64,000 nucleotides of DNA from Actinomycetes bacterium (GTDB taxonomy: Bacteria > Actinomycetota > Actinomycetes > Streptosporangiales > Streptosporangiaceae). The stretch is from contig JAJYTD010000002.1 of NCBI GenBank assembly GCA_021793235.1, forward strand, positions 62,001 through 126,000, given 5' to 3'. Below, in pieces: positions 1,600-60,708 of this stretch (position 1 is the first letter of the stretch; each line of letters opens with the position of its first letter). The position numbers and the translations under genes were made by a program. Under the pieces are notes generated by a model. That model had not been told where the DNA came from. It made no database searches and saw only the letters and a program-made list of their open reading frames with translations.

Positions 1600-2339
1600 G
1601 CACAGCGAACCCGCCGTTCCGCGCCACGCTGGGCCGGTCCGTCGCGCTGTTCTCCGCCTTCCGCGCGGAGCAGACCGACCCCGACCGCTTCTACGGCACG
1701 CTGGCCCGCGACACCGTCGCCCAGCTCCGCTCCTACACTCCGCTGGACGGCAAGGTCGTCGTGGACGTCGGCGGCGGGCCCGGCTACTTCGCCGACGCCC
1801 TGCGCGCGGCCGGCGCCCGCTGCGTCTGCGTGGACGCCGACACCGGTGAACTGCGTCTGCGCGGCGGCGAGCTGCCCGACACCGCCGTCCTCGGCAGTGC
1901 CCTGGACATGCCGATGCGCTCGGATTCGGTGGACATCTGCTTCTCGTCGAATGTGCTGGAGCATGTCCCGGACCCGCCGCGCATGGCCGAGGAGATGGTC
2001 CGGGTGACCCGCCCCGGCGGGCTCGTCTACCTGTCCTACACCCTGTGGCTGTCCCCGTGGGGCGGCCACGAGACCTCGCCGTGGCACTACCTGGGCGGCG
2101 CCTACGCCGCCCGCCGATTCGTCCGCAAGAACGGCCGGCGCCCCAAGAACGACTTCGGCCGCACGATGTTCGCCGTCTCGGCCGCACAGATGCTGGCCTG
2201 GACCCGCGGCCGGGACGACATCGATGTGGTCGACATCCTGCCCCGCTACCTTCCGGTATGGCTGAAACCCATCGTGCGCGTTCCCGGTCTGCGCGAGATC
2301 ATCACCTGGAACCTCCTGCTGGTACTGCGCAAACGCTGA
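1596..2339 (+). CDS. Class I SAM-dependent methyltransferase
   Basis: This 247-residue methyltransferase overlaps the previous stop codon (ATGA), indicating coupled translation. Motif I is VVDVGGGPGYF (55-65) with the acidic residue at the end of strand 2 in CVDAD (D80). FSSNVLEHVPDPP is the usual methyltransferase-11 type post-motif. A conserved basic, aromatic C-terminal region (WLKPIVRVPGLREIITW) may contact membrane or a lipid-linked acceptor. It is distinct in sequence from its upstream partner, so this is an old pair rather than a recent duplicate. Confidence 0.85.
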   Translation: MSTANPPFRATLGRSVALFSAFRAEQTDPDRFYGTLARDTVAQLRSYTPLDGKVVVDVGGGPGYFADALRAAGARCVCVDADTGELRLRGGELPDTAVLGSALDMPMRSDSVDICFSSNVLEHVPDPPRMAEEMVRVTRPGGLVYLSYTLWLSPWGGHETSPWHYLGGAYAARRFVRKNGRRPKNDFGRTMFAVSAAQMLAWTRGRDDIDVVDILPRYLPVWLKPIVRVPGLREIITWNLLLVLRKR

Positions 2340-2384
2340 GGAGGGCGGGGTCCCGTGCGCAAGCAACGGGCTCACCATGGGACT

Positions 2385-2423
2385 GCGGCAATGGGGGCAC
2401 CGCTCGCTACGCCCCATTGCCGC
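2385..2423. terminator. Convergent-gene hairpin sharing a repeat motif with 15.2 kb
   Basis: GCGGCAATGGGG pairs exactly with CCCCATTGCCGC across a 15-nt loop. It lies between the methyltransferase stop at 2339 and, overlapping, the last codons of the convergent DUF3068 gene (stop 2407). It can work as a bidirectional terminator. GCGGCAATGGGGCG plus AGCGAG recurs in the inverted element at 15219-15474. Confidence 0.55.
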
Positions 2424-3516
2424 CGGCCCAAGAAGGGCTGGAGCGATCCGGATCCTGCGCCTCCTCTGCCCCGGGTCGCCCCTCGCGCCCGCGCGGCCAC
2501 GTGAGCGCCGAGACCGGGACCAGCAGCACGCCCAGCACACCCAGACCCGCCGGAAGCCAGGTGCGCACGGCCGCAATCAGCAGCCGGGCGGCGCGCGCGT
2601 CCTCGGCGTAGGCGGCGACCAGCGTGTCAGGCATGGTGAAGTCGGCGTCCAACAGCACCCGGTCCCCTGTTCCCGTATCGGCCTTCAGGGTTTCGCGGCG
2701 CTCCTCCGCAGCGTTCACCAGGCGGCCGCTCACCGGTTCGATCCAGTACGTGCGCCGCAACTCCAGCCAGCGGGTCGCCGTGACCGTCCCGGAGCGGTCC
2801 AAACCGAGCACCCCCGCCGGAACGGGCCGTTTGGAGCCGGGGATCTGCGTGGCGTCGATGGTCTGCACGTAGCGGCGGACCTCCACACCGGCGATCTCGT
2901 CGTGGCCGTCGAAGACCATGCTCGGCGCGGCACGGATATCGGCGTCGTAGAACGGGTACTCCTCGCCGTACGCTCCGGCCGGCCACCACAGCACCAGCCC
3001 GGCCTGCCGAACGGCACGGTCGCCGTCAACGTGCTCCCCGCAGCAGTTCACCGCCATTTTGGTGGAGCGGTGAACGACGACCCGGCGGTCCATGTGTCCG
3101 ATCATCGATGTGCCGCTCGCGGTGTCGACCGACACCTCCCACGTGACCCAGTCGGGATTGCCCGGACTGGGGGATCCGTGCACCTGGGTGCTCTGCGTGA
3201 CCTCGCTGTCCTCGACCGTTTTCCAGGTGCTGGTGTCCAGATGGGACGCGGTCTCATCCACCAGCCGCACCTGCATCGACATGTTCGCCGGGAGCACCGC
3301 GAACTGGTCGGCCGCATAGAAGCGGAGCAGGAGCGCGAAGGTGATGAGGAACGCCCCGAGTCCGAGTGCCAGGGGCCCCGAATTGCGGCGCAGCAGGCTG
3401 GCGCCGCGTCGCGGTACCGGGTCATCGCCCACCGCTTCACCGTCCTTCGCCAAGACCCGTTCCGCAAAGGCGGACATCCCCCTCTGCGGGTCCGCGTCCT
3501 TTTTCGGCGCGGCCAT
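2407..3516 (-). CDS. DUF3068 family membrane-anchored protein
   Basis: A 369-residue protein with one membrane span near 47-66, a large extracytoplasmic domain with SMQVRLVDET and a conserved WWPAGAYGEEYPFYD stretch, and a second span near the C-terminus, followed by a charged tail. This architecture is that of the actinobacterial DUF3068 family. Its ATG overlaps the stop of the upstream AftD-like gene (ATGA), so the two are cotranslated and presumably work on the same exported glycan. The last codons run into the terminator hairpin. Function is not established. Confidence 0.8.
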   Translation of the reverse strand: MAAPKKDADPQRGMSAFAERVLAKDGEAVGDDPVPRRGASLLRRNSGPLALGLGAFLITFALLLRFYAADQFAVLPANMSMQVRLVDETASHLDTSTWKTVEDSEVTQSTQVHGSPSPGNPDWVTWEVSVDTASGTSMIGHMDRRVVVHRSTKMAVNCCGEHVDGDRAVRQAGLVLWWPAGAYGEEYPFYDADIRAAPSMVFDGHDEIAGVEVRRYVQTIDATQIPGSKRPVPAGVLGLDRSGTVTATRWLELRRTYWIEPVSGRLVNAAEERRETLKADTGTGDRVLLDADFTMPDTLVAAYAEDARAARLLIAAVRTWLPAGLGVLGVLLVPVSALTWPRGREGRPGAEEAQDPDRSSPSWAGGNGA

Positions 3517-6500
3517 CAGGCGTTCACTTCCTCGGCCATCCCACGCCCATCGCTCTCGTCGGCCGGTTCCTCCTCGGGCGGGGTGCGCCGCGCGTCGGCC
3601 GATGGGGTGCCGCGGTCGGCGGTCTCCCGCCGGATGGGGGCGGAGAGTTCGCCGAGCGACACCACGAGCCGGGCCAGCGCCGGCAGGCACAGCAGCTGGG
3701 CGACTCCGCCACGCAACGGATCGCTGAGCAGATCGCTGATGTCGTGGAACGGAAAGTACAGCGCCAGGTAGGTGCCCACGGCCGCGGACAGTCCCGCGCA
3801 ACCGAGCGCCACGGTGACGGTCCACGGGCCCGCGAGCCAGCGAAGGAGGCGCCCGCCCAGCGCAGGGCGCTCGGGTTTGGCGTGCCGCAGTGCCGCGGAC
3901 GGGGACCGGCCCAGCCACCACACGAACAGCAGCGCCGCGCCGATGACCGCGGCGCCCGCGGCGCCCGCCACCCACAGCCCGTAGAGCAGCCCGAGCGGGA
4001 CGAGCAGGCCGCGGCTGATCCGACCGGGGGCGGCCGCGGCCGGTGGCGTCGATGCGCGCACCGGCTCCGTGCCCTCGGTCGCCCGGACCGCGCGGCGCCT
4101 GCTCATCGGTGCGCGCATCGCCAGCACCCCGGCCAGCAGGGCCAGCACGGCGCCCGCGCCGAGGGCCGCATGGTAGACGCGGTCGGGAGCGTAGGTCAGA
4201 GTCACGGTTCCGGCGGTTCCGGCAGGCAGCTTCCATGCCTGCTTCCAGCCGTCCAGGCGCACCGGTTCCAGCGTGCCGTCCCCGACCGCTGCTTCCCATC
4301 CCTCATTGAAGTTCTCGTTGACGACGAGGTAGCTGTCTTCGTCGACGGCCACGTCGAACCGGCGCTCGCTGTCGCCCCACGAGGCGACCGAGGCCACGCC
4401 GGCCATGTCGACGTCACCGCGCTCGTCGGCCTGTGCGTCCTCGATGACGGCCGAGCGCACCTGGAACTGGTTACCGGGCTCCACGATGACGCGGTTCTTC
4501 CCATCGGTGATCCCGATGTCGGAACAGGACTCATAACGCAGCGGCTTCCCGCCGAGCTTGTCCTCCAGGCTGCCCGAGGCGATGCGGGTCTCCACTCGTT
4601 CTCCGTTGATCCGCAGCACAGGACCGAGCCCGCACCCGGTCGCGGCCTCGCCGCCCTCGATCGGCTCCAGCGGCTCCACATCGGGCAGGGAGATCCGCTG
4701 GATCTCCAGCGGCTGACCTTCGGGCCGGTCGAAGGTGATGGTCAGTTCATCGGCCGTGACCGGGGAGAAGTCCACCCAGCCGCTTCCGTCGAGCCATCCC
4801 TCACGGACGGTGGACCCGGTTTCCACGGTGACCTTGATGGGGCGCGCGATGCTGTCGGTACGCGGGAACTCCACCTTTATCCCATTGATCTCGACCTTGG
4901 TTTCGAGATCGACTTCCAGCCAGGGCTCATCCTCGTGCGGGGCGGGGTACCAGACGGTGCTGTCGTCCGCGTCGAACGCGTTGCGCCCCATCGCCGCCGG
5001 GTGCTGTACCGATGTGGAGGATGAGGTGACCTTGGGATATCCTCCGGCCCGATTGGCCGCGTTCTCCACATCCGCGGGATCGGTGACCACGACTTCGCCG
5101 CTGATGCGGTACTCGCCCGAACCCGTGTCGGCCATCTCGAAGGTGCGGTCGAGGACGTGGGCGTTCTCCCCCTGTACGGCGAGGTCGGGGTTGCACACCC
5201 ACACGCGGGACCCCTCCATGCAGCCCGGGACTGTGCCGGTGGACCCGGTGAACAGAACGGTGCCGGCACCGGGCACACCCGGGACGTCGAGCGTGCGGGT
5301 CGCCTCCACACCGGGAAGGGCGATGTCGGTGATGCCTACGCGGGTGCCGAACCGGTAGTCCGGTTCCCAGGCGAGGCCGTCCACCCGAATCCGCAAGGTG
5401 GTGGTCTCTCCCGCGGGCGCGGTGAACTCCTGGGGCTCTCCGGTGGCCGCCACGGGCGCGCTGACCTGGTCGTCATCGGTGATGAGACTGATCTCTGCAG
5501 GGGGCGGCTCGCCCGCGATCTGCTCGAAGGCGATGGTGAGGTCGCCGACCTCGCGGGGCTCGTCGAACTCGATCTCCAACCACTGCCCGATGGCGCCGGT
5601 GAATCCGCTGGATCGCCAGGAGGTGCCGAGGGCGCCGTCGAGCGCGGAGAACGGCATCCGGCCCGGGTCACGGGTGCCTGGGTTGGCGTTCGCCCCGGCT
5701 TCGGAGGAGGAGGCGGTGACCGACGCGATGCCGTGGTTGACGGCCGCCGCGGTGTAGTCCTCCCATGCCGGGTCCATGATGTCGGGAGCGGGCGCGTCGC
5801 GCTCCAGTTCCTCGTCCGCGGTCAGCGTGTTGCTGATGTTGCGCCGCACGTCGGAGTAGACGACCTCGCGGCGGCGGGAGGTGTCGGTGACGATCGTGTC
5901 CTTTGGCGCGATGTCCTCGGCGCCGGGGTCGTCACCGATGAGGACCGGTCGGTCATCGGTGAGCATCCCTTGTTCGGCCAGGCTGAGCAGGGCTTCGGGG
6001 CCGCCCGTCACCCGCACTGCCGTATCGGCGGGGACGGTTCCCACCGTGGGCGCGGCCCCTTCGACCTTGTAGATGTCGAGTGCCTTGTAGGGCTGGTCGT
6101 ACCAGTCGGCGGCCTGCTGGACGTCCCGCGAACCCACTGCCGGCCCGAACGACACCTGGCGGACGATGCCGGGTGAGTCCTCCAGCGCCTGGTGTACGCG
6201 TGCGGGCCAGCCTCCGTTGTTTCCGCTGCGTTGCAGGTCGTTGCGGACGATGAGGTGGGTGACGCCCATGCGGGCCAGTGTCGCAGTCAGCCCCGCGGAA
6301 CCCCGCCCGGAGGAGATTCGCTGGTCGATCTCCTGGGTCAGCCGGGAGACCCCCGCCGACCCCCAGGGGATGATCTGGTGGTTGGTCCACGCGCTGTCCA
6401 TGAGCGGCTGCATGGGCTCGTCCATGGGACGGCCCCATTCGTACTCGCCGCGCGCGGAGCCCGGAACGGCCATGGTCATTCCGCTGCTCGCGTTGGCGTC

Positions 6501-26819: not shown

Positions 26820-28703
26820 TCAGAACCGCAGCGTCTGCTTCCAGGCGATGACCCGGGTCTTGGACAGGCGGTCGCGGATACCGCGCCGGCCGGTTCGGTC
26901 GGAGAGCGCGACAAGGAAGTCCGCGAGCAGGCCGAGAAGGGGGATCGCCGCCAAGACGAACAAGAGGACGGTGCGGACAGCCGCGGACCGTCCGGACAGG
27001 CGGGTGCCGGCCCCGGTGCTCACGACGCGGATCCCGACGACGGCCTTGCCGACCGTCTGCCCGCGGTTCATGGTGGGCGCCCAGTGGTAGTAGAAGACCG
27101 TGGTCAGCATCAGCGCCAGCACGATCAGAAGGGAGGCGACGAATGATTCGCCGGAGTCCTCGATCGGCAGGAACGGCCCCAGGATCAGTAGCATCATCAG
27201 CCCCATCCCGCCGAGGTAGATGACGAACGCCATCGCCCCGGACAGCACGGCGTCGATCGCGAACGCGCCGAAACGCTTGTCCAGCGGTGCGGGGGCCGCC
27301 GACGCCAGGATCGCCCGCTCGGCTTCGGCCTCGCGCTCGGCGTCCTCCGGGGTCCAGGCGCCGCGTTCGAAGCGTTCCTTCGCGGCCCGGTCCACCATGC
27401 CGGTCAGGATGAAGTAGGCGGGCGCCGACACCAGCATCCCCAGCAATGGGAACACGATCCAGTCCCCCGGTGCCCACGCCAGGCCGAGCACCATCAGCGG
27501 AAGCACGACCAGGGTCGCGCCCCAGAGGCGCCCGCCGCGGAGTTGGAGCAGGAACCGGCGCATGCGGGCGGGGACACGCCACAGGCAGAGCAGCGTATAA
27601 GCCGCCCAGGCCGTGACCGGAGCGGCGAAGACGGCGCGCACCACGGTGGCGGTCCGGATCCCTTCCCCGGCCGCGAAGCCCACCTGGCCGCTGCTCGCGT
27701 CTGCGGCCCAGACGTAGGCGGCGGGTGCGAAGAGCGAGAAGTTCCGGTTCTCTGGAACGGCCGGAGGAGAGGGAGAAGAGAAGTCCGGGATGTCGATGTC
27801 GATATCAGGAATATCGGGGGCTTCGATGGACGGAGGGTCGATAGGATCTTGAGAGGGAAACCCGTTTCCCTCCGGGCTCCAGGACTCCGGCGACGGCTCG
27901 ACGGCCTCGGGCGCATTCGGGGATGTGTCCTCGGAGGGACTCGCGTGCCCCACCGCGAACACGATCATCAGCATGAGCGCCAGCGGAATCGCCACCGTGA
28001 TGAGCCGCGCGGTGAACGTCCGGCAGATCACATACGCATCGCGCAGGCTGTTTATGGCGCGCGGGTCCAGGGCGATCGCGGCCAGCAGGTGTTCCAGGGC
28101 CTGGATCCTGCGCTTCCGTGCGGTCTGTACCCCGCCCAGCAGCCCCATCAGCCATGCCGACTCCGGATTGAGGCGGACTCCTTCGCGGACATGCCGGAGG
28201 GCGGCGTCCAGATCGCCCAGCGCCTTGTACGCGATCGCGATGTTGCCCTGCACCGTCGCGCTTTCAGGGGCGAGTTCGATGGCGCGTGCAGCGGCGGCCC
28301 GGGCGTCGGCCGCCAGGCGCTCCCGTTCGGGGAACCCCTTCTTGTAGTAGGCCGCGAAAGCCATGGCGGCGAGCATGTGGCCGTCGGCGTCCTCGGGGGC
28401 GAGCTGGATCATCTCCCGTGCCGGCTCCAGCGCTTCGGGCATCCGGTCGGAGAACATCAGGCCGAAGGCCAGCTGCCGGAACGCGATGGCGCTCGGCCCC
28501 CCCGCGGCAAGGGCGCGTTGGGCCGCTTCGATCGCTTCCGGTCCCTGCTTCAGCTCGACGTGGGCGGTGGCTTTCGCGACCCACAGGCGATGGTCGTCGG
28601 GGTTGGCGGCAAGCCCGTGGCCGAGGATCTCCAGCGCTTCGGAGTACCTGCCCATGCCCAACCGCACCGAGGCGCGTTGGAGGATGTCCTGAACGTCGGC
28701 CAC
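26820..28703 (-). CDS. TPR-RDD fusion membrane protein
   Basis: A 627-residue protein. The first ~230 residues are tetratricopeptide repeats (GRYSEALEILGHGLAANPDD; AIAYKALGDLDAALRHVREG). Then come a membrane span, an acidic low-complexity insert (DIPDIDIDIPDFSSPSPPA) and several more spans, ending in an RDD domain: DKRFGAFAIDAVLSG with the R-x-x-D arrangement and the conserved NRGQTVGKAVVGIRVVST. It is three bases from the upstream AAA ATPase stop, so the two form an operon. Its job is unknown; TPRs suggest a protein partner, perhaps the ATPase. Confidence 0.8.
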   Translation of the reverse strand: MADVQDILQRASVRLGMGRYSEALEILGHGLAANPDDHRLWVAKATAHVELKQGPEAIEAAQRALAAGGPSAIAFRQLAFGLMFSDRMPEALEPAREMIQLAPEDADGHMLAAMAFAAYYKKGFPERERLAADARAAAARAIELAPESATVQGNIAIAYKALGDLDAALRHVREGVRLNPESAWLMGLLGGVQTARKRRIQALEHLLAAIALDPRAINSLRDAYVICRTFTARLITVAIPLALMLMIVFAVGHASPSEDTSPNAPEAVEPSPESWSPEGNGFPSQDPIDPPSIEAPDIPDIDIDIPDFSSPSPPAVPENRNFSLFAPAAYVWAADASSGQVGFAAGEGIRTATVVRAVFAAPVTAWAAYTLLCLWRVPARMRRFLLQLRGGRLWGATLVVLPLMVLGLAWAPGDWIVFPLLGMLVSAPAYFILTGMVDRAAKERFERGAWTPEDAEREAEAERAILASAAPAPLDKRFGAFAIDAVLSGAMAFVIYLGGMGLMMLLILGPFLPIEDSGESFVASLLIVLALMLTTVFYYHWAPTMNRGQTVGKAVVGIRVVSTGAGTRLSGRSAAVRTVLLFVLAAIPLLGLLADFLVALSDRTGRRGIRDRLSKTRVIAWKQTLRF

Positions 28704-28706
28704 TGG

Positions 28707-30026
28707 TTACCGCCAGGACTTGCCTCGCGAACGGATGAACTCGGCAAGGTCGTCGTAGGCGCCGTCGTTGGAGAACTCCACGACGTTGCGCGCGGTCTCC
28801 AACCACGGCCCGGTGGACGGCCGTACCTCGCCCAGGACGTACTGGAAGTCCTTCATGCTGATCGGACGCACGGTCCCAGTACGGGCCGAGTCCAGCATGG
28901 CGCGCTCGGCCGCGCTGTCCACGAGGTGGGCGATGTCTGCCCCGGAGAACCCCTCGGTGTGCTTGGCGATCTTCTTCGCGTCGATGCCGGCGGCGGGGCG
29001 CTCCTTCAGCCCGGCCTCCACCAGCGCCGCGCGCGCCTGCAGGTCCGGCGGCGGGACGAAGAGCATGCGGTCGAGCCGTCCGGGCCGCTTGAGCGCGCTG
29101 TCGATCTCCCACGGGTGGTTGGTGGCGGCGAGGAAGAAGACGCCCTCGTTGTCATCCTCCACCGAATCCAGCTCGGTGAGCAGCTGTGTGACCAGAGGTC
29201 GCAGCATGGCCGCGGTGCTCCCCCGCCGTCCGCCCATCGCGTCCAGCTCGTCCAGGAAGACCACCGACGGCCGGTACTGGCGCGCTTGCCGGAACAGCGC
29301 CTGTAGATTCCGCTCACCGCTGCCCATCTGCCCGCCGGTTATGTCGGCGACCGAGACGGAGAGGAACCGCGCTCCGATCTCGCCGGCGACGGCTTTGGCC
29401 ATGAACGTCTTACCGCAACCGGGCGGGCCGTACAGCAGCAGGCCGCCGCGCAGGTTCTTCGCATAGGCCTTGCGCAGCTCCTCGTTGCGCATCGGCATCA
29501 GGAACGCGGCGTTGATCCGCTCCTTGACCTTCTCCATACCGGCCACGTCGGCCAACGTGACCTTCGCCTGCTCGGGCGGGAAGTCGTCGGACATGAGCGG
29601 CTCGGGCTCGCCCAGGTTCCACGAGGAGGCACCCGTATCCTGCCCGCCGCGGTCGGCGCCGTCGTCGCGTACGAGCGTGGCCGTACCGCCGCCGCCCTGG
29701 TCGAGGAATCCGAACCCGACTCCCGAAGCGGGCTCGGGCCCGGGCTGCTCGGGTTGCGGTTCGGGTCGCGGCTCATTCTGCGGAGGTTGCGCCGCGGCCG
29801 CCTCGGCCGGTGTCACCGGCTGGCCGAGCGCCTTTCCCATCAGTTCCTTGGCCTTGTCCGACTGCGGATCCTGCTGCAGCGCGGTGGCGATGTGCGGGAT
29901 CGCCGTGTCCGTCTCCCTGGAGGCGAGCAGCAGCTCCGCCAGGTGCAGCCGCAGGACCGGGTCCCCCGGCGAGGCTTCGACCGCCGCGGAGATACTGGCG
30001 ATGAGCTGCTCACGCGAAGAGTCCAC
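28707..30026 (-). CDS. AAA ATPase (FtsH/CDC48-like) with N-terminal TPR-like region
   Basis: A 439-residue protein from GTG 30026; an ATG at 30080 would add 18 residues. The N-terminus is a helical repeat-like region (LRLHLAELLLASRETDTAIP), then a Pro/Gln linker, then one AAA domain with Walker A LLYGPPGCGKTFMAKAV, Walker B VVFLDELDAMGGRRG, sensor-1 FFLAATNHPWEID and an arginine-finger RPGRLDRMLFV. There is no protease or membrane domain, so it is a soluble remodeller. Operon with the TPR-RDD gene. Confidence 0.85.
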   Translation of the reverse strand: MDSSREQLIASISAAVEASPGDPVLRLHLAELLLASRETDTAIPHIATALQQDPQSDKAKELMGKALGQPVTPAEAAAAQPPQNEPRPEPQPEQPGPEPASGVGFGFLDQGGGGTATLVRDDGADRGGQDTGASSWNLGEPEPLMSDDFPPEQAKVTLADVAGMEKVKERINAAFLMPMRNEELRKAYAKNLRGGLLLYGPPGCGKTFMAKAVAGEIGARFLSVSVADITGGQMGSGERNLQALFRQARQYRPSVVFLDELDAMGGRRGSTAAMLRPLVTQLLTELDSVEDDNEGVFFLAATNHPWEIDSALKRPGRLDRMLFVPPPDLQARAALVEAGLKERPAAGIDAKKIAKHTEGFSGADIAHLVDSAAERAMLDSARTGTVRPISMKDFQYVLGEVRPSTGPWLETARNVVEFSNDGAYDDLAEFIRSRGKSWR

Positions 30027-30238
30027 GAACTGACCACTCCTGGGGGGTAGGCCCGGAATACGGGGCATCGCTGAAGCCACCGCCGACCGAGAACCGACGG
30101 CACAGTGGGAGTGATAAGTCTACAACGCCCCACGTTTACCTCTTTACCGCCTTTACGCCCCTTCCGTCTCCACGATGAGGGTGGCCGGTCTGGGCCGGCG
30201 ACCATCCCCACGACCGTGAGAAGCCATGGAAAGCACAA

Positions 30239-31174: not shown

Positions 31175-33178
31175 CTACTGTCCGATCGCCTCGCCCGGAT
31201 CCGCCGCAGAGTCCGCGGAATCCGCACCACTGTCGGTGTCGCCGCCCTGCTGTTCGCCGCCGGCGAGCTTCTCGACGTAATCGAACGGCAGTTGCTGCAG
31301 GAAGGAGCCTGCCGCGGTGGTCGCGTACTGGTCCCACTGCTGTGCCGGATCGACCTCGGCCACAACAGCGAAGGCAAGGCCGCCCTGGTAACCGACGAAC
31401 CACTGCACAGCGGTCTTTTTCCCGTCCACCTTCTGCTCGGCGGTCGCCGATTGGCCGTGCACCGGGATCACGCCCACGTTCGCGTTCGCGGCGCTCACCT
31501 CGACAGCGGAGCGCATCATCGCGCGCAGCTCCTTGACGGTACTCGGATCGAGTTCCCGTGGCCCCTCGACTTCGGCGCCCTCGTCGGTACCGGGGTCCTC
31601 ACCTTCTGCGATGATCCGCGGCGGATGCCAGGCACCTTCGGCCACACTACCGGCCACCAGCGCCATTGAGAGAGGACTGACCTTCACCTGGCCTTGGCCG
31701 ACCATGGCCGCGGCGGTCTCGGCCGCGGAGTCCGGCGAGGCGAACTCTCCGTTGAAGGTCGGCACCGAAAGCCGCCAGTCTCCACCGATCCCGAAGTCGG
31801 CCGCAGCGGTTTCGAGCGCGTCGGCGCCCACCTTTTCACCGAGGCCGGCGAAGGCCGTGGTGCAGGTGTAGGTGAAGTCCAGGGCGAGATCGGGGGTGCC
31901 CCACAGCCCATTGTTGTTGGGGTTGGTGAAGGTCTGGTCGCCGACCTTCACCTGCTGGTCACAGGGGACGGTGTCATCGGAGCTGACCGCTCCGGACTGC
32001 AATGAGGCCGCTGCCGAGACGATGGTGAACGCCTCACCGGGCTGGTACTCGCTGGTGAGCGCTCCGTCGTTGTCCACGCTGCCGGGGGCGCCGGCCGCGG
32101 AGAGGATCTCCCCGCTGCGCGCATCCAGGGCGACCAGGTAACCCTTGCCCGGCAGCAGCTCCAGCGCGGCCTCACTCGCCTGCTGCACCTCGGCGTCCAG
32201 GGTCGTCGTCAGCGACCCGCTCTCCGTCCCCGGCCAGGTCTCCAGCACCCCGGTCTGCTTCCCCGTGCCGTCAAGGGTCACGATCTCGGTTGTCGCGGTG
32301 CCGGCGAGCCGCTGCTGGAAGGCGTTCTGCAAGCCGTTCAGACCGACGGTGTCGCCGGCCTGGTAAGCGGTCGTGACGCGGGAGGAGACGTTGTGCTCGG
32401 CGGTGCCGGCGACCTCCCCGATGACGGCCTTCGCCATCTTGGGGTTCAACCGCATCTTCAGTTGCCTGGTCTCGACACCGGGGATCTGCTTCGCCTTCTT
32501 CTCCACCGAGGTCTTGACGTCGCCCTGCCGCATCAGGACGAGCGGCTGGAACTCCTCGGGCGGGGCTGAGCGCACCCGGTTGAGTAGCGGACCGGGGTCC
32601 TCTTCCAGTAGGTCGGCGAGCGCGCCGACCCCCTCCTCCTTGTCCTCCATATCGGCGGGGACCACGCCGAAGGCGGTGACCTTGTCCTGGCCGACCAGAG
32701 GCTCCTCGTTCCGATCGAAGATCTGGCCGCGGTCGGGCACGTCGTAGCTGACCGCGAGCCGTTCGTCCGCACCGAGTTCGGGGTGGATGACTGCGGGCGA
32801 CCAGTCGATCGTCCATCCGCTGTCATCGCGCGACAACGGTATGGAACCGGTATAGGTCCACACCGGGTCGCCGATACCGAGATCCGCCGTCGCATCGAAC
32901 TTCGCGGTGGCGGAGTCGCCCTCGCGTTCGAGCCCGCCGAGGGAGAACCGGATGGAAGCCAGGTCCAGCTGGGCATGCGCCTGTTCGAGCGCCTCCGCCA
33001 CCTCGTCCACGTCCCCGTTGGTCTGGTTCGCTGCGCCCTCGTACACTCCGGCCTGCCAGTCGAGCAGGAATGTGCGGACGGCGACTTCAGGGCTGGGTTG
33101 AGGGGCGCACGCGGCCACGGCGGCGAGAGCCGCCAGACCTGTGCCTGCTGCTAGGAGTCGACGGGGACGGGGGGACAC
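31175..33178 (-). CDS. PBP2-like lipoprotein with degenerate active site
   Basis: A 667-residue lipoprotein: signal LAAGTGLAALAAVAACAPQP with lipobox AAC, an NTF2-like MecA-N domain (VRTFLLDWQAGVYEGAANQT), a PBP dimerisation-like region and a transpeptidase domain. The three transpeptidase motifs are altered. Where family members have SxxK after YxPG this protein has YQPGEAFTIV (E and T); SxN is TCT in TYTCTTAFAGLG; KTG is QSA in HGQSATAEQ. It should not acylate beta-lactams or cross-link peptidoglycan. It lies between smpB and ssrA, 23 bases from smpB. A structural or regulatory role in the envelope is inference. Confidence 0.85.
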   Translation of the reverse strand: MSPRPRRLLAAGTGLAALAAVAACAPQPSPEVAVRTFLLDWQAGVYEGAANQTNGDVDEVAEALEQAHAQLDLASIRFSLGGLEREGDSATAKFDATADLGIGDPVWTYTGSIPLSRDDSGWTIDWSPAVIHPELGADERLAVSYDVPDRGQIFDRNEEPLVGQDKVTAFGVVPADMEDKEEGVGALADLLEEDPGPLLNRVRSAPPEEFQPLVLMRQGDVKTSVEKKAKQIPGVETRQLKMRLNPKMAKAVIGEVAGTAEHNVSSRVTTAYQAGDTVGLNGLQNAFQQRLAGTATTEIVTLDGTGKQTGVLETWPGTESGSLTTTLDAEVQQASEAALELLPGKGYLVALDARSGEILSAAGAPGSVDNDGALTSEYQPGEAFTIVSAAASLQSGAVSSDDTVPCDQQVKVGDQTFTNPNNNGLWGTPDLALDFTYTCTTAFAGLGEKVGADALETAAADFGIGGDWRLSVPTFNGEFASPDSAAETAAAMVGQGQVKVSPLSMALVAGSVAEGAWHPPRIIAEGEDPGTDEGAEVEGPRELDPSTVKELRAMMRSAVEVSAANANVGVIPVHGQSATAEQKVDGKKTAVQWFVGYQGGLAFAVVAEVDPAQQWDQYATTAAGSFLQQLPFDYVEKLAGGEQQGGDTDSGADSADSAADPGEAIGQ

Positions 33179-33201: not shown

Positions 33202-33666
33202 TCAGCGCCGACGGCGGAGTGCGCGTTCTATGTCCCGCTGCGCCTCGCGTGCGGCGATGTCGTGACGTTTGTCGTGGGTACGCTTACCGCGTGCCAATGC
33301 GATCTCCACTTTGGCCTTGCCATCGCTGAAGTACAGCGACAGTGGCACAAGCGTGCGGCCCGCTTCCTGGGTCTTGCCGATCAGCCGGGAGATCTCGTCG
33401 CGGTGCAACAGCAGCTTACGCGGTCGGCGCGCGGCGTGGTTGGTCCACGTCCCGTGTGCGTACTCGGGAATGTGGACGTTCTCCAACCACACTTCTCCGT
33501 TCTTCACGTGGGCGAATCCGTCCACCAGCGAAGCGCGCCCGGCACGCAGCGACTTCACCTCGGTTCCGGTGAGCACGATGCCCGCCTCGTAGGTGTCGTC
33601 GATGTGGTAGTCGTACCGGGCACGCCGGTTCTGCGCGACAAGCTTGCGTCCTTTGTCCCGTGGCAC
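33202..33666 (-). CDS. smpB: SsrA-binding protein SmpB
   Basis: 154 residues, the normal length. The OB-fold core [39 protein letters not shown] and [13 protein letters not shown] are conserved, and the basic tail ends in IERALRRRR. It binds tmRNA and the ribosomal A site during trans-translation. It lies downstream of ftsX and 2.4 kb from ssrA. Confidence 0.95.
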
Positions 33667-33715: not shown

Positions 33716-34624
33716 TCACACCCGCAGGTAGCGCCGCAGCGTCAGGAACGATGTCACGGTGCACAGCAGGACACCCAGGATCAGCGAGACCCCGATCACC
33801 GACAACACCGACCCCGCGGTGAGGGTGATGTCGAAATTGAACCATGCCTGGATCTTGTCCAGCAGGAAGAACTTGGCCGCGACGATGAACCCGGAGGCGA
33901 AGATCCCACCGACGAGCCCGGCGACGGCCCCTTCCAGCAGGAAGGGCAGCTGGATGTAGAAGTTCGACGCGCCGACAAGCCGCATGATGCCGGTCTCCCG
34001 ACGCCGGCTGTAGGCCGACAGCCGGATGGTGTTGCCGATCAGCAGTGCCGCGGCGGCCAACTGGACGAAGGCCACGACCAGAGCGGCCCACTTCAAACCG
34101 TCGAGCAGGCTGAAGAACTGCTCCAGGACCTGCTGGTCGTCGGAGATCGAGTCGATTCCGGGCCGGCCCTCAACCGTCTTCTGCACCTTGTCGTACTGGG
34201 TCGGATCCGCCAGCTGCACGCGGAAGTTGTCGGGGATGTCTCCCTCTTGCGCCGCTTCGACCAGGGCCTTGTTGTTGGCGAAGCGGTCCTGGAAGTCCTC
34301 CCACGCCTCTTTCGCCGTTACGTACTCGACGTTTTGCACCTCGGGCAGGGCCTCCAGGTCCTGCTGGATCGAGGTCCGCTCCTCCTCGGTGGCCGCGCCG
34401 TTCTCCTCACATGCCTTGGACGGCGACTTGTCCGTGCACATGTAGATCGTCAGGGAGACCCGTTCGTCCCAGTACGTGCGCATCTGCGAGACCTGCTGGT
34501 TGATGAGCAGACCGCCACCGAACAAGGCGAGCGAGATGGCCACCGTGGTGATCACCGCGATGGTCATCGTCAGGTTCCGGCGCAGGCCGATCCAGGTCTC
34601 GGAAAGTACGAATTGTGCTCGCAT
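33716..34624 (-). CDS. ftsX: Cell division permease-like protein FtsX
   Basis: 302 residues: one N-terminal span ([20 protein letters not shown]), an extracytoplasmic domain of about 130 residues with one cysteine ([13 protein letters not shown]), then three C-terminal spans, the FtsX topology. It partners FtsE and, in actinobacteria, controls a peptidoglycan hydrolase such as RipC. The gap to ftsE is 83 bases. Confidence 0.95.
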
Positions 34625-34707: not shown

Positions 34708-35397
34708 TCAGTAGGCCTGGCCGTAGACGCCCCGCGTCTGGTCGCGCACGACCTCGCCCTCTTCGAGCTCGATGACGCGTTTGCGCATCGAGTCGACGAT
34801 GGCGGCATCGTGGGTCGCCATGACGACGGTCGTCCCGGTCCGGTTGATTCGGTCGAGCACCTTCATGATGCCGATCGATGTGGCGGGGTCGATGTTGCCT
34901 GTGGGCTCGTCGGCCAACAGGATCTGCGGCCGGTTCACGAAGGCCCGGGCGATGGCGACCCGCTGTTGCTCACCACCCGACAGCTCGTCGGGCATGCGGT
35001 CGGCCTTGCCTTCGAGACCGACGAGTTCGACGACCTCGGGCACCACCTTGCGGATGAACCGCCGAGGCTTGCCGATGACCTCCAGCGCGAAGGCCACGTT
35101 CTCGAAGACGTTCTTGTTCGGCAGCAGCCGGAAGTCCTGGAACACGCAGCCGATACGGCGGCGGAGGTGCGGTACCTTCCAGTTGGACAGGCGGGCGAGG
35201 TCCTTGCCGGCGACATGCACCCGGCCCCTGGAGGGCTTCTCCTCCTTGAGGACAAGCCTGAGGAATGTGGATTTGCCCGAGCCTGAAGGACCGACGAGGA
35301 AGACGAACTCTCCCTTGCCGACGTCGATGGAAACATCCTCCAGCGCGGGGCGCTTCTGGGTCGGATAGACCTTGGTGACGTTTTCGAAGTGGATCAC
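34708..35397 (-). CDS. ftsE: Cell division ATP-binding protein FtsE
   Basis: 229 residues from GTG 35397, which starts the canonical [20 protein letters not shown]. Walker A is GPSGSGKST, signature LSGGEQQR, Walker [11 protein letters not shown], switch H in MATHDA. There is no clear ribosome-binding site. A candidate promoter lies upstream at 35612-35640 (TTGACA, 17 bp, TCTGTT). With FtsX it forms a type VII ABC complex at the divisome. Confidence 0.95.
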
Positions 35398-35743
35398 AGG
35401 TGCATCACAAGGTTCTCGGAGGTTGGGCCCAAGCGGACACTCTGTTCGCTCGGGGCAGTACCGGCCACGGGGCCAATCGACAGTGTAGAGGGGATCGCAA
35501 CCCGGAATGTCCAGATCGACCCGCATCCTCATGTCCCTCGCCGGGAATCGGAGCGGTACTCGGGTGGTCTCCACCCCCACGCGGCTCTTCGGCCTCGGTT
35601 GTCCATGGGACAACAGAGATGAGCATATCGGAACTGTCAACCACTGGTAACGTTAACGTATACGATTTTCCCGGCACCCCCGCCGCCGGAAGCGGTCGGC
35701 ATGCCGGGACTCCTACCCCCGTGGGGACCGGGCGGTCGGGGAA

Positions 35744-36859
35744 CTACTCCCCGCCGCGTTCCTGACTGCGCAACCACCGGATCTCGGCATCGATGAAGTC
35801 GTCGATGTCGCCGTCCAGCACACCCCCGGTGTTCCCGGTCTCCACACCGGTACGTACGTCCTTCACACTCTGATAAGGGTGCAGCACGTAGTTGCGCATC
35901 TGGGTACCCCAACTGCTGACACTGTCGCCGCGCAGCTCATCGAGTTCCGCCTGCTCCTCCCTGCGCTTGCGCTCCAGCAGCTTGGCCTGCAGCATCGACA
36001 TCGCGGTCGCGCGGTTCTGCAGCTGGGAGCGCTCATTCTGACACGAGGTGACGATCCCGGTCGGCAGATGGGTGATCCGCACCGCCGAGTCCGTGGTGTT
36101 GACGCCCTGTCCGCCTGGACCACTGGAACGGTAGACGTCGATCCGCAGATCGTTCTCGTCGATATCGATGTGGTCGCTCTGCTCCACGACGGGCACGACG
36201 TCGACACCGGCGAACGAGGTCTGGCGGCGGCTCTGGTTGTCGAAGGGAGAGATCCGCACCAGGCGGTGGGTCCCGTGCTCGCCGCGGAGCGTCCCGTAGG
36301 CGAACGCCGCTTTGACAACGAAGCTCGTCGACTTGATGCCGGCTTCCTCGGCATAGGAGGTCTCATAGATCTCCGTGGGATAGCCGCGACGCTCGGCCCA
36401 GCGCAGGTACATCCGCTGCAGCATCTGCGCCCAGTCCGCGGCGTCGATGCCCCCGGCCTGGGAGTTGATGGTGACCAGGGCTTCGCGCTCGTCATAGGGG
36501 CCGCTCAGCAGCGTCCGGATCTCCAGCTCGCCGATGTCCTTGCGCAGCGACTCCAGTTCCTGGTCGGCCTCTGCGAGGGTGTCCGCGTCGTCCTCGGAAG
36601 CGGCGAGTTCGTAGAGCACCCCGAGGTCGTCGAGCCGCTGCCGGATGCTGCCGAGCTTGTCGACCACGGATTCCAGGTTGGCGAGTCTGCGGGTGACCTT
36701 CTGCGCGTTGTCCGGGTCCTCCCACAACTCGGGGTCGGCAGACTGCTCACGCAATTGGTCGATCTCTGTCTGCTTGGCCTCGAGATCCAGCACGGCTTCC
36801 ACACTCGCCAGAGTCGACGAGAGTTCCTTGATCTTTTCAGCGGGGTCTTGGTCTGCCAC
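35744..36859 (-). CDS. prfB: Peptide chain release factor 2
   Basis: 371 residues. The stop-codon-recognition SPF is in [13 protein letters not shown], and the catalytic GGQ is in [16 protein letters not shown]. The frame is continuous, with no programmed frameshift as in E. coli. GTG 36859 has TAGACT ending seven bases upstream, consistent with a leaderless message; an ATG at 36898 would add 13 residues. First gene of the prfB-ftsE-ftsX-smpB group. Confidence 0.95.
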
Positions 36860-36930
36860 GTTCCCAAGTCTAGGGGGCAGCGAGGGACTACCCCACATTG
36901 TGGCCTCACGCGCGGCACGCCGCGCGGCCG

Positions 36931-59234: not shown

Positions 59235-59912
59235 TCAGTCCACCAGGCGGATGACCCCGTAGTTGAAGCCCTTGCGGCGGTAGACGACGCTTGGCGCATC
59301 GCGGTCATCGTCGTGGAAGAGATAGAAATCGTGGCCCACGAGCTCCATCTCCATGAGGGCTTGGTCGATGGTCATCGGCTTTGCCGAGTGGAACTTCTCC
59401 CGAACGATCACCGGGGCCGCACCCTGGGTGTCGAGTTCGAGGATCTCGTCCGAGAACTGGGCGTCCAGAGCGGGACCGTCGATCTCCTCGGACTCGATCG
59501 CCGGTGAGGGAGCCGAAGGAGGAACGGCCGCAGTGCCCCGGCCGATCTCCACGCCGTTCGCCAGGTCCGCGGTGGCCGCGGCCACGGAAACGGGAGCGCG
59601 GTTCCCCTTCTGCACTTTCCTGCGATCAGCGAGCTTGCGCAGCCGGGCTTCGATACGGTCCAGCGCCTGGTCGAGAGCGCTGTAGCGATCGTCGGCGGAT
59701 GCTTCACTGCGGACCACCGGACCGCTGGAGTGGATGGTCAGCTCAACCCGCTCTCGCTGGTCCGCGAGCTTGGGGTTGCGCTCTTTGGACACCTCCACAT
59801 CGACGCTCATGCCTTTCTTCTCCCACTTGGAGAGCTTGTTCAGCTTGTTCTCGACGTGCTGCCGGAACCTGTCGCTGACATCTGTGCGCCGACCCTTGAC
59901 GATGATGTCCAC
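59235..59912 (-). CDS. hpf: Ribosome hibernation-promoting factor, long form
   Basis: 225 residues. N-terminal domain MDIIVKGRRTDVSDRFRQHV with the basic helix RIEARLRKLADRRKVQK binds the 30S subunit; an acidic linker follows; the C-terminal dimerisation domain is HSAKPMTIDQALMEMELVGH to the end. The long form makes 100S dimers. The gene is upstream of secA in reading order, as in other actinobacteria. Confidence 0.95.
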   Translation of the reverse strand: MDIIVKGRRTDVSDRFRQHVENKLNKLSKWEKKGMSVDVEVSKERNPKLADQRERVELTIHSSGPVVRSEASADDRYSALDQALDRIEARLRKLADRRKVQKGNRAPVSVAAATADLANGVEIGRGTAAVPPSAPSPAIESEEIDGPALDAQFSDEILELDTQGAAPVIVREKFHSAKPMTIDQALMEMELVGHDFYLFHDDDRDAPSVVYRRKGFNYGVIRLVD

Positions 59913-60708
59913 AAGACCCCCTTCGTCGCGCGGCCATCGCTGCGCGATGGCCCGGCTCTGCTGCCCCGCACGCTGCCGGTGCCGGGCTCGACTCCCTGTT
60001 CCTCCTCTCCGCTCCGTCCGCTGCGGACGGCGGTCTCACTTGGCAATCCGTATACCCACAAGACCACCGCCCTCACTCCAGAGCAGGTAATTCACTCGTT
60101 CAAAGCGCGGAACACACCGAAGCGGCCTCCGCTTGGCGAGGGGGCCGGATTTATCCGCGAGAACGGGCCGGGTTTGGCAACGGGGCGATCGCCCTGCCCA
60201 TGCCCAGCCGTGTACCGCACGGCTCGGCCGCCGACGCTGCACGCTGACACGCCGAGCAAAGAAACGGCCACCCGCCCGGCCGACCTGGTCTTCGTCCCCA
60301 CATCCGCCTGCTGAGGGGCTCGCCGCGCTTGAGTGCGACTACTGCCCTTCTCCCGGTCACAAGGGACATCGGGTCCCTCTGCGGGGCAGGACTTACCTCT
60401 AAGCCGCACCGTGATCGGTCGACGAAAAGTCGCCTTACGTGGGCCGCTTCGCCTGCGGCTGGCATCGGCTTGCCGAACAGGCGCCCCTTGGACGGGACGC
60501 CGTATCCGGCGCAACCACGGACCCGGACGGGTGCCATGTCATGACGCTAACCCGATATCGATCAGATGTCAGGTCCGGATTTCACCGCGCACCCTCGAGG
60601 ATGCGTTTTTGTCCCCTTGAACCACCAAAAGAAGAGAAACCTGACAACGCGGTAAAAAGTTCTTTACGGTCTCGCCGCCGAACAGGACTCCTCCGGGTTC
60701 GGGCCGGA
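59913..60708. other. 796-bp non-coding stretch between comF and hpf
   Basis: This must carry the hpf promoter. Frames here look like chance. A hairpin-rich segment at about 60330-60450 (including CGACGAAAAGTCG at 60420-60432) might be a leader RNA or small RNA, but I recognise no known riboswitch or RNA gene. Confidence 0.4.

Follow-up and report, generated by a model that had tools for sequence, protein, structure and literature searches.

Penicillin-binding proteins (PBPs) are usually studied as enzymes and as drug targets, and to our knowledge the role of the MecA_N domain is unclear even in PBP2a and PBP-lipo. PBP-lipo (Rv2864c/MAB_3167c), a class B PBP lipoprotein of mycobacteria whose MecA_N domain was assigned in PMC3987819, functions alongside PbpB and DacB1 in the synthesis of septal peptidoglycan in M. 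abscessus, where it is found at the subpolar region and the septum and interacts genetically with both (PMC9170245). PBP5fm of Enterococcus faecium, PBP3 of B. subtilis and PBP2a of S. aureus are catalytic and bind beta-lactams. PBPs without catalytic residues are already known as such, as SxxK is recorded as missing from certain class A PBPs of Streptomyces (PMC6273383).

We analysed a 64,000-nucleotide stretch of DNA (the window) from a member of the Streptosporangiaceae, which encodes a lipoprotein of the MecA_N class that has lost all three catalytic motifs (Table 1). The gene starts 23 bases after the end of smpB and is preceded by a ribosome-binding site, AAAGGA, ~8 nt upstream of its GTG codon. 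Its signal peptide ends in a lipobox cysteine kept in 113/122 orthologues, so that the product is predicted to be lipidated. The MecA_N, PBP_dimer and Transpeptidase (TP) domains all exceed the curated Pfam cut-offs, and by domain content the protein has the same architecture as PBP2a, PBP5fm and PBP-lipo. The initial annotation had called the protein a PBP2-like lipoprotein that retains a lipobox, MecA_N and the transpeptidase fold; these retained features and the term lipoprotein stand, but "PBP2-like" is loose, as the protein scores 167.6 bits against the PBP2/MrdA equivalog (NCBIfam TIGR03423), for which the cut-off is 455. AF2 gives a well-folded model (pLDDT 83.3, pTM 0.79; the TP domain mostly >90) with a PBP fold: its closest matches are PBP5fm and B. 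subtilis PBP3, PBP2a is also matched, and a second structural comparison gave Z up to 39.5. The nearest named relatives of the source organism are Streptomonospora, at 66-67% identity.

Table 1. The PBP gene of the window, its domains and former catalytic motifs, and the neighbouring genes (positions in the window).
Feature	Position	Strand	Basis and remarks
prfB	35744..36898	-	
ftsE	34708..35640	-	longest ORF; true start probably internal
ftsX (FtsX_ECD + FtsX domains)	33716..34624	-	
smpB, immediately upstream of the PBP gene	33202..33666	-	
Predicted pseudo-transpeptidase gene (class B PBP lipoprotein, 667 aa, GTG start)	31175..33178	-	ORF call + Pfam
Lipobox Cys codon (C24), LAAVAAC	33107..33109	-	sequence; orthologue alignment
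MecA_N (NTF2-like), aa 30-138	32765..33091	-	Pfam 8.6e-12; best-conserved domain of the motif-deficient clade
PBP_dimer, aa 147-310	32249..32740	-	Pfam 1.6e-19
Transpeptidase (TP), aa 346-625	31304..32143	-	Pfam 5.7e-34
Former SxxK, E382-A-F-T385 (YQPGEAFT)	32024..32035	-	HMMER alignment; orthologues
C406, retained like C439 both across the clade and in active relatives	31961..31963	-	orthologue alignment
Former SxN, T438-C439-T440 (TYTCTTAF)	31859..31867	-	HMMER alignment; orthologues
Former KTG, Q576-S577-A578 (GQSATAE)	31445..31453	-	HMMER alignment; orthologues
ssrA (tmRNA), tag ANSKRTEFALAA	30425..30796	-	

The motif positions were mapped by HMMER alignment to 7bn9 and 8f3f, and the changes are exactly those first read from the sequence: SxxK has become ExxT (S382 to Glu, K385 to Thr), SxN has become TxT (SCN to TCT) and KTG has become QSA, leaving none of the Ser-Lys pair, SxN and KTG of a class B PBP. 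HMMER alignment revealed no intact set displaced elsewhere in the TP domain or the rest of the protein, and the orthologue alignment no conserved substitute catalytic pair in the protein. Two cysteines of this domain, C439 (kept in 193/193 orthologues) and C406 (120/122), probably form a disulphide.

Each of 151 genomes sampled from the window's GTDB family gave a match, and orthologues were taken from nearly all of these and from 80 named records; as some named records duplicate sampled genomes, only distinct proteins were counted (193). The named hosts are Streptosporangiales including Nocardiopsis, Streptomonospora, Thermobifida, Marinactinospora, Actinorugispora, Actinomadura, Actinoallomurus, Thermomonospora, Microbispora, Microtetraspora, Planotetraspora, Sphaerisporangium and Nonomuraea, among others. 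In one genome (G055) the contig ends directly after smpB, and in the draft genome G105 smpB was not found and the sole MecA_N protein is an intact one. The orthologues share the loss: the SxxK Lys is kept in none of 193 (Ser 93, Thr 70, Gly 29, Ala 1) and the KTG Lys in none of 191 (Gln 88, Val 76, Ile 24, Leu 3; gap in 2), the SxxK Ser is kept in 14/193, and 175/193 have none of the three motifs intact. Reading frames are intact in every orthologue not cut by a contig end. The presence of the loss in 193 distinct orthologues excludes chance and sequencing error and, together with the dN/dS values given below, also rules out a pseudogene.

The fate of the two lysines bears on what such a protein could still do. 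As an extracytoplasmic PBP fold it might be a beta-lactam decoy or a BlaR-type sensor that depends on acylation, but acylation requires the Ser/Lys pair and the KTG Lys, of which both Lys are missing in every member, and Pfam identifies no transmembrane protease part; the protein thus has neither the acylatable SxxK nor the membrane metalloprotease of BlaR/MecR, and we find this reading barely credible. Among the roles offered by the initial annotation (scaffold, sensor or decoy), that of a scaffold or binding partner agrees best with the data, and a decoy or acylation sensor is unlikely. Slow catalysis with unconventional residues, for example as a carboxypeptidase or hydrolase, could make use of the Ser or Thr that mainly replaces K385 (163/193), but 29 proteins have Gly at residue 385, an invariant nucleophile/base pair is absent, and the sole near-invariant Ser of the TP domain, S501, sits in a VSPL stretch common to active PBPs, which makes slow catalysis very improbable.

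The neighbourhood helps to place the loss in time. The order prfB-ftsE-ftsX-smpB-PBP is found in 74 of the 80 named loci, nearly all others being cut by contig ends, and the tmRNA gene then follows the PBP gene in nearly all loci, which bears out the early reading of a PBP gene between smpB and ssrA. An insertion peculiar to the window genome was rejected, as the smpB-linked PBP is common to five GTDB families and is intact in three of them. Since smpB has no PBP gene behind it in most other actinobacterial families examined, the entry of the PBP into the smpB-ssrA gap is real but old.

The intact smpB-linked orthologues (L093-L095, L098 and L099; PPGSTFK, SCNTAF and GKTGTAE) belong to f39, a family of the same taxonomic order, and to f7 and f30. 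They share the locus and the domains and lie near on the tree, but differ from the motif-deficient proteins in having all catalytic motifs and in coming from genomes with a single MecA_N protein each. Orthologues with normal motifs, named in the initial annotation as evidence against its reading, therefore exist, but they occur at this locus in other families, and thus give a date for the loss instead of contradicting it. An orthologue from the sister family f38 of the same order (L092, genome G330, 2048-3973, minus strand) is half-way: it reads PPGSVFQ, with the Ser kept and the Lys changed to Gln, SCT for the second motif and GLAG for the third, and both Lys are gone. It is a candidate for dating the loss and indicates that the motifs, thought at first to have been lost simultaneously, need not have been. 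In trees computed without the motif columns, the motif-deficient proteins and L092 form a single clade (SH-aLRT 100; bootstrap/SH-aLRT 100/100 in a second tree) with intact locus-mates among its nearest relatives, from which the catalytic loss appears to have a single origin in an active PBP, as expected of a pseudoenzyme. The data are compatible with, but do not demand, a clade of the motif-deficient proteins that leaves out L092 (AU p = 0.47).

Several lines of evidence indicate that the protein has been retained under purifying selection. NG86 estimates over 134 pairs of 76-99% identity, which share branches and are not independent, gave median dN/dS values of 0.23 for aa 27-345 and 0.31 for the TP domain, well under 1 and with no pair above 0.66; single TP pairs reach 0.65, indicating some relaxation. 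The motif-deficient clade is better conserved in MecA_N (identity 0.47) than in the TP domain (0.39), the reverse of active relatives (0.30 vs 0.51), and the reversal persists in bins of similar PBP_dimer identity. Sites invariant in active relatives but lost here include S382, K385, S438, N440, Q495, G496 and KTGTAE576-581, whereas those constrained only in the motif-deficient clade lie mostly before residue 320 and include V34, A50, V60, D72, D99, R140, A142, L213, G275 and Q288. Clade-wide loss, intact frames, low dN/dS and constraint moved to the N-terminal domains together uphold the early suggestion of selection for a non-catalytic role. They also bear on whether this is a decaying gene retained as a spacer or transcription unit for ssrA, its protein irrelevant. 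The fixed position before ssrA, the dispensable catalysis and the presence of an active paralogue would suit such decay, but the intact frames, a dN/dS of 0.2-0.3 and a MecA_N more conserved than in active relatives would not; this protein-level constraint largely refutes the spacer reading, which we hold to be highly improbable.

The same conservation data apply to a non-covalent peptidoglycan sensor, in which muropeptides or nascent glycan would be bound in the old groove or, by the MecA_N and dimer lobes, at an allosteric site like that of PBP2a. The fold and lipid anchor are kept, MecA_N is strongly conserved, and the closest solved folds include 3zg5, PBP2a with a ligand at its allosteric site. 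Against this, no replacement residue is conserved in the old pocket (T, G, E, M, S, Q, L or P occur at position 382 across the clade), the alignment of the clade has no newly conserved polar residue anywhere in the TP domain, and no signalling domain or regulator adjoins the gene. Because nothing new is conserved in the pocket, sensing there is the less likely form, and we regard a sensor as unlikely overall.

The window genome has intact FtsI, PbpA and MrdA, and its other MecA_N PBP is of the active type, with intact motifs and a reduced dimer domain. Nearly all genomes with a motif-deficient smpB-linked PBP carry at least two MecA_N proteins; of the additional copies examined, all but one, which aligns poorly, have their motifs in place. 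The catalytic loss was probably made possible by an active duplicate, although the tree has a single loss and its link to paralogue number therefore has n=1. The exception, L256 (genome G030), is a MecA_N protein away from smpB whose motifs look degenerate (AAYAPGPSFAKIA, VSGAAGTAPA) and is possibly an independent dead PBP.

The most reasonable explanation, to which we give a probability of about 0.6, is that the protein is an ancient, selected pseudo-transpeptidase that acts as a lipid-anchored, non-enzymatic partner through its MecA_N and dimerisation region, with a paralogue supplying catalysis. An active MecA_N class B PBP lipoprotein settled between smpB and ssrA, and its Ser/Lys, SxN and KTG residues were then lost in the common ancestor that the Streptosporangiaceae sensu GTDB share with one sister family. 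Since that loss the protein has been retained as a folded, membrane-anchored, non-enzymatic protein, in which MecA_N and the dimerisation region most likely bind cell-wall or division partners or peptidoglycan and the transpeptidase fold would serve as a structural part only. Catalysis of the ancestral type probably comes from the second, intact MecA_N PBP, which is present in nearly all of these genomes and would have taken over this function. The clade-wide loss under selection comes from sequence comparison, and from it we infer the mechanism.

A division role for such a partner is reasonable because its relative PBP-lipo is subpolar and septal and interacts genetically with PbpB and DacB1. 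Gene position makes FtsEX a plausible candidate partner; the ftsEX adjacency is older than the catalytic loss and is therefore no argument for a new role with FtsEX. We see an even chance that the lineage as a whole has converted a transpeptidase into a dedicated non-enzymatic envelope or division component, encoded in the ftsEX-smpB string and with MecA_N as its working part.

The closest known systems differ from the protein in several respects. PBP-lipo is likewise a MecA_N lipoprotein of class B, but it is a predicted transpeptidase for which smpB linkage is unreported (PMC9170245, PMC3987819), whereas the motif-deficient clade is without all three motifs; PBP5fm, PBP3 and PBP2a share the three-domain architecture and the fold but are catalytic, and the protein described here has no catalytic residue. 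The Streptomyces proteins also lack SxxK but are class A, scattered and away from smpB, with SxN and KTG mostly conserved and no clade-wide triple loss (PMC6273383). A literature search on pseudo-, inactive and smpB-linked PBPs found no report of the family, which is apparently undescribed; a 2015 review of actinobacterial PBPs lay outside this search and an earlier mention is possible. A selected, lineage-wide PBP predicted not to bind penicillin covalently parts PBP structure from chemistry, and with MecA_N as its best-conserved region it offers a natural system for partner discovery. Domain-based annotation would label these proteins transpeptidases and so miscount the PBPs of antibiotic-producing actinobacteria.

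The surroundings of the gene vary in other respects. An additional gene between ftsX and smpB at L160, L163, L165, L166, L168, L182, L192 and L197 was considered as a peptidoglycan hydrolase and rejected, since by eye it reads as a putative S41 (CtpA-type) protease; it is absent from the window and has apparently been lost more than once. The tmRNA tag in Nocardiopsidaceae is also ANSKRTEFALAA, and tags are longer, with inserted residues (e.g. ANNTRTEVSQGSLALAA), at L046, L047, L058 and other loci of Microbispora and Microtetraspora relatives. Downstream of ssrA, at 26820-30080 (minus strand), a gene pair encodes a 457-aa TPR-AAA+ ATPase, which resembles IetA defence ATPases (1.6e-34), and a 627-aa TPR-RDD membrane protein. 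Elsewhere in the window, a raiA RNA motif (RF03072, 143 bits) lies at 60271-60531 (minus strand), with a 225-aa ribosome-hibernation-factor-like gene downstream of it at 59235-59912 (minus strand).
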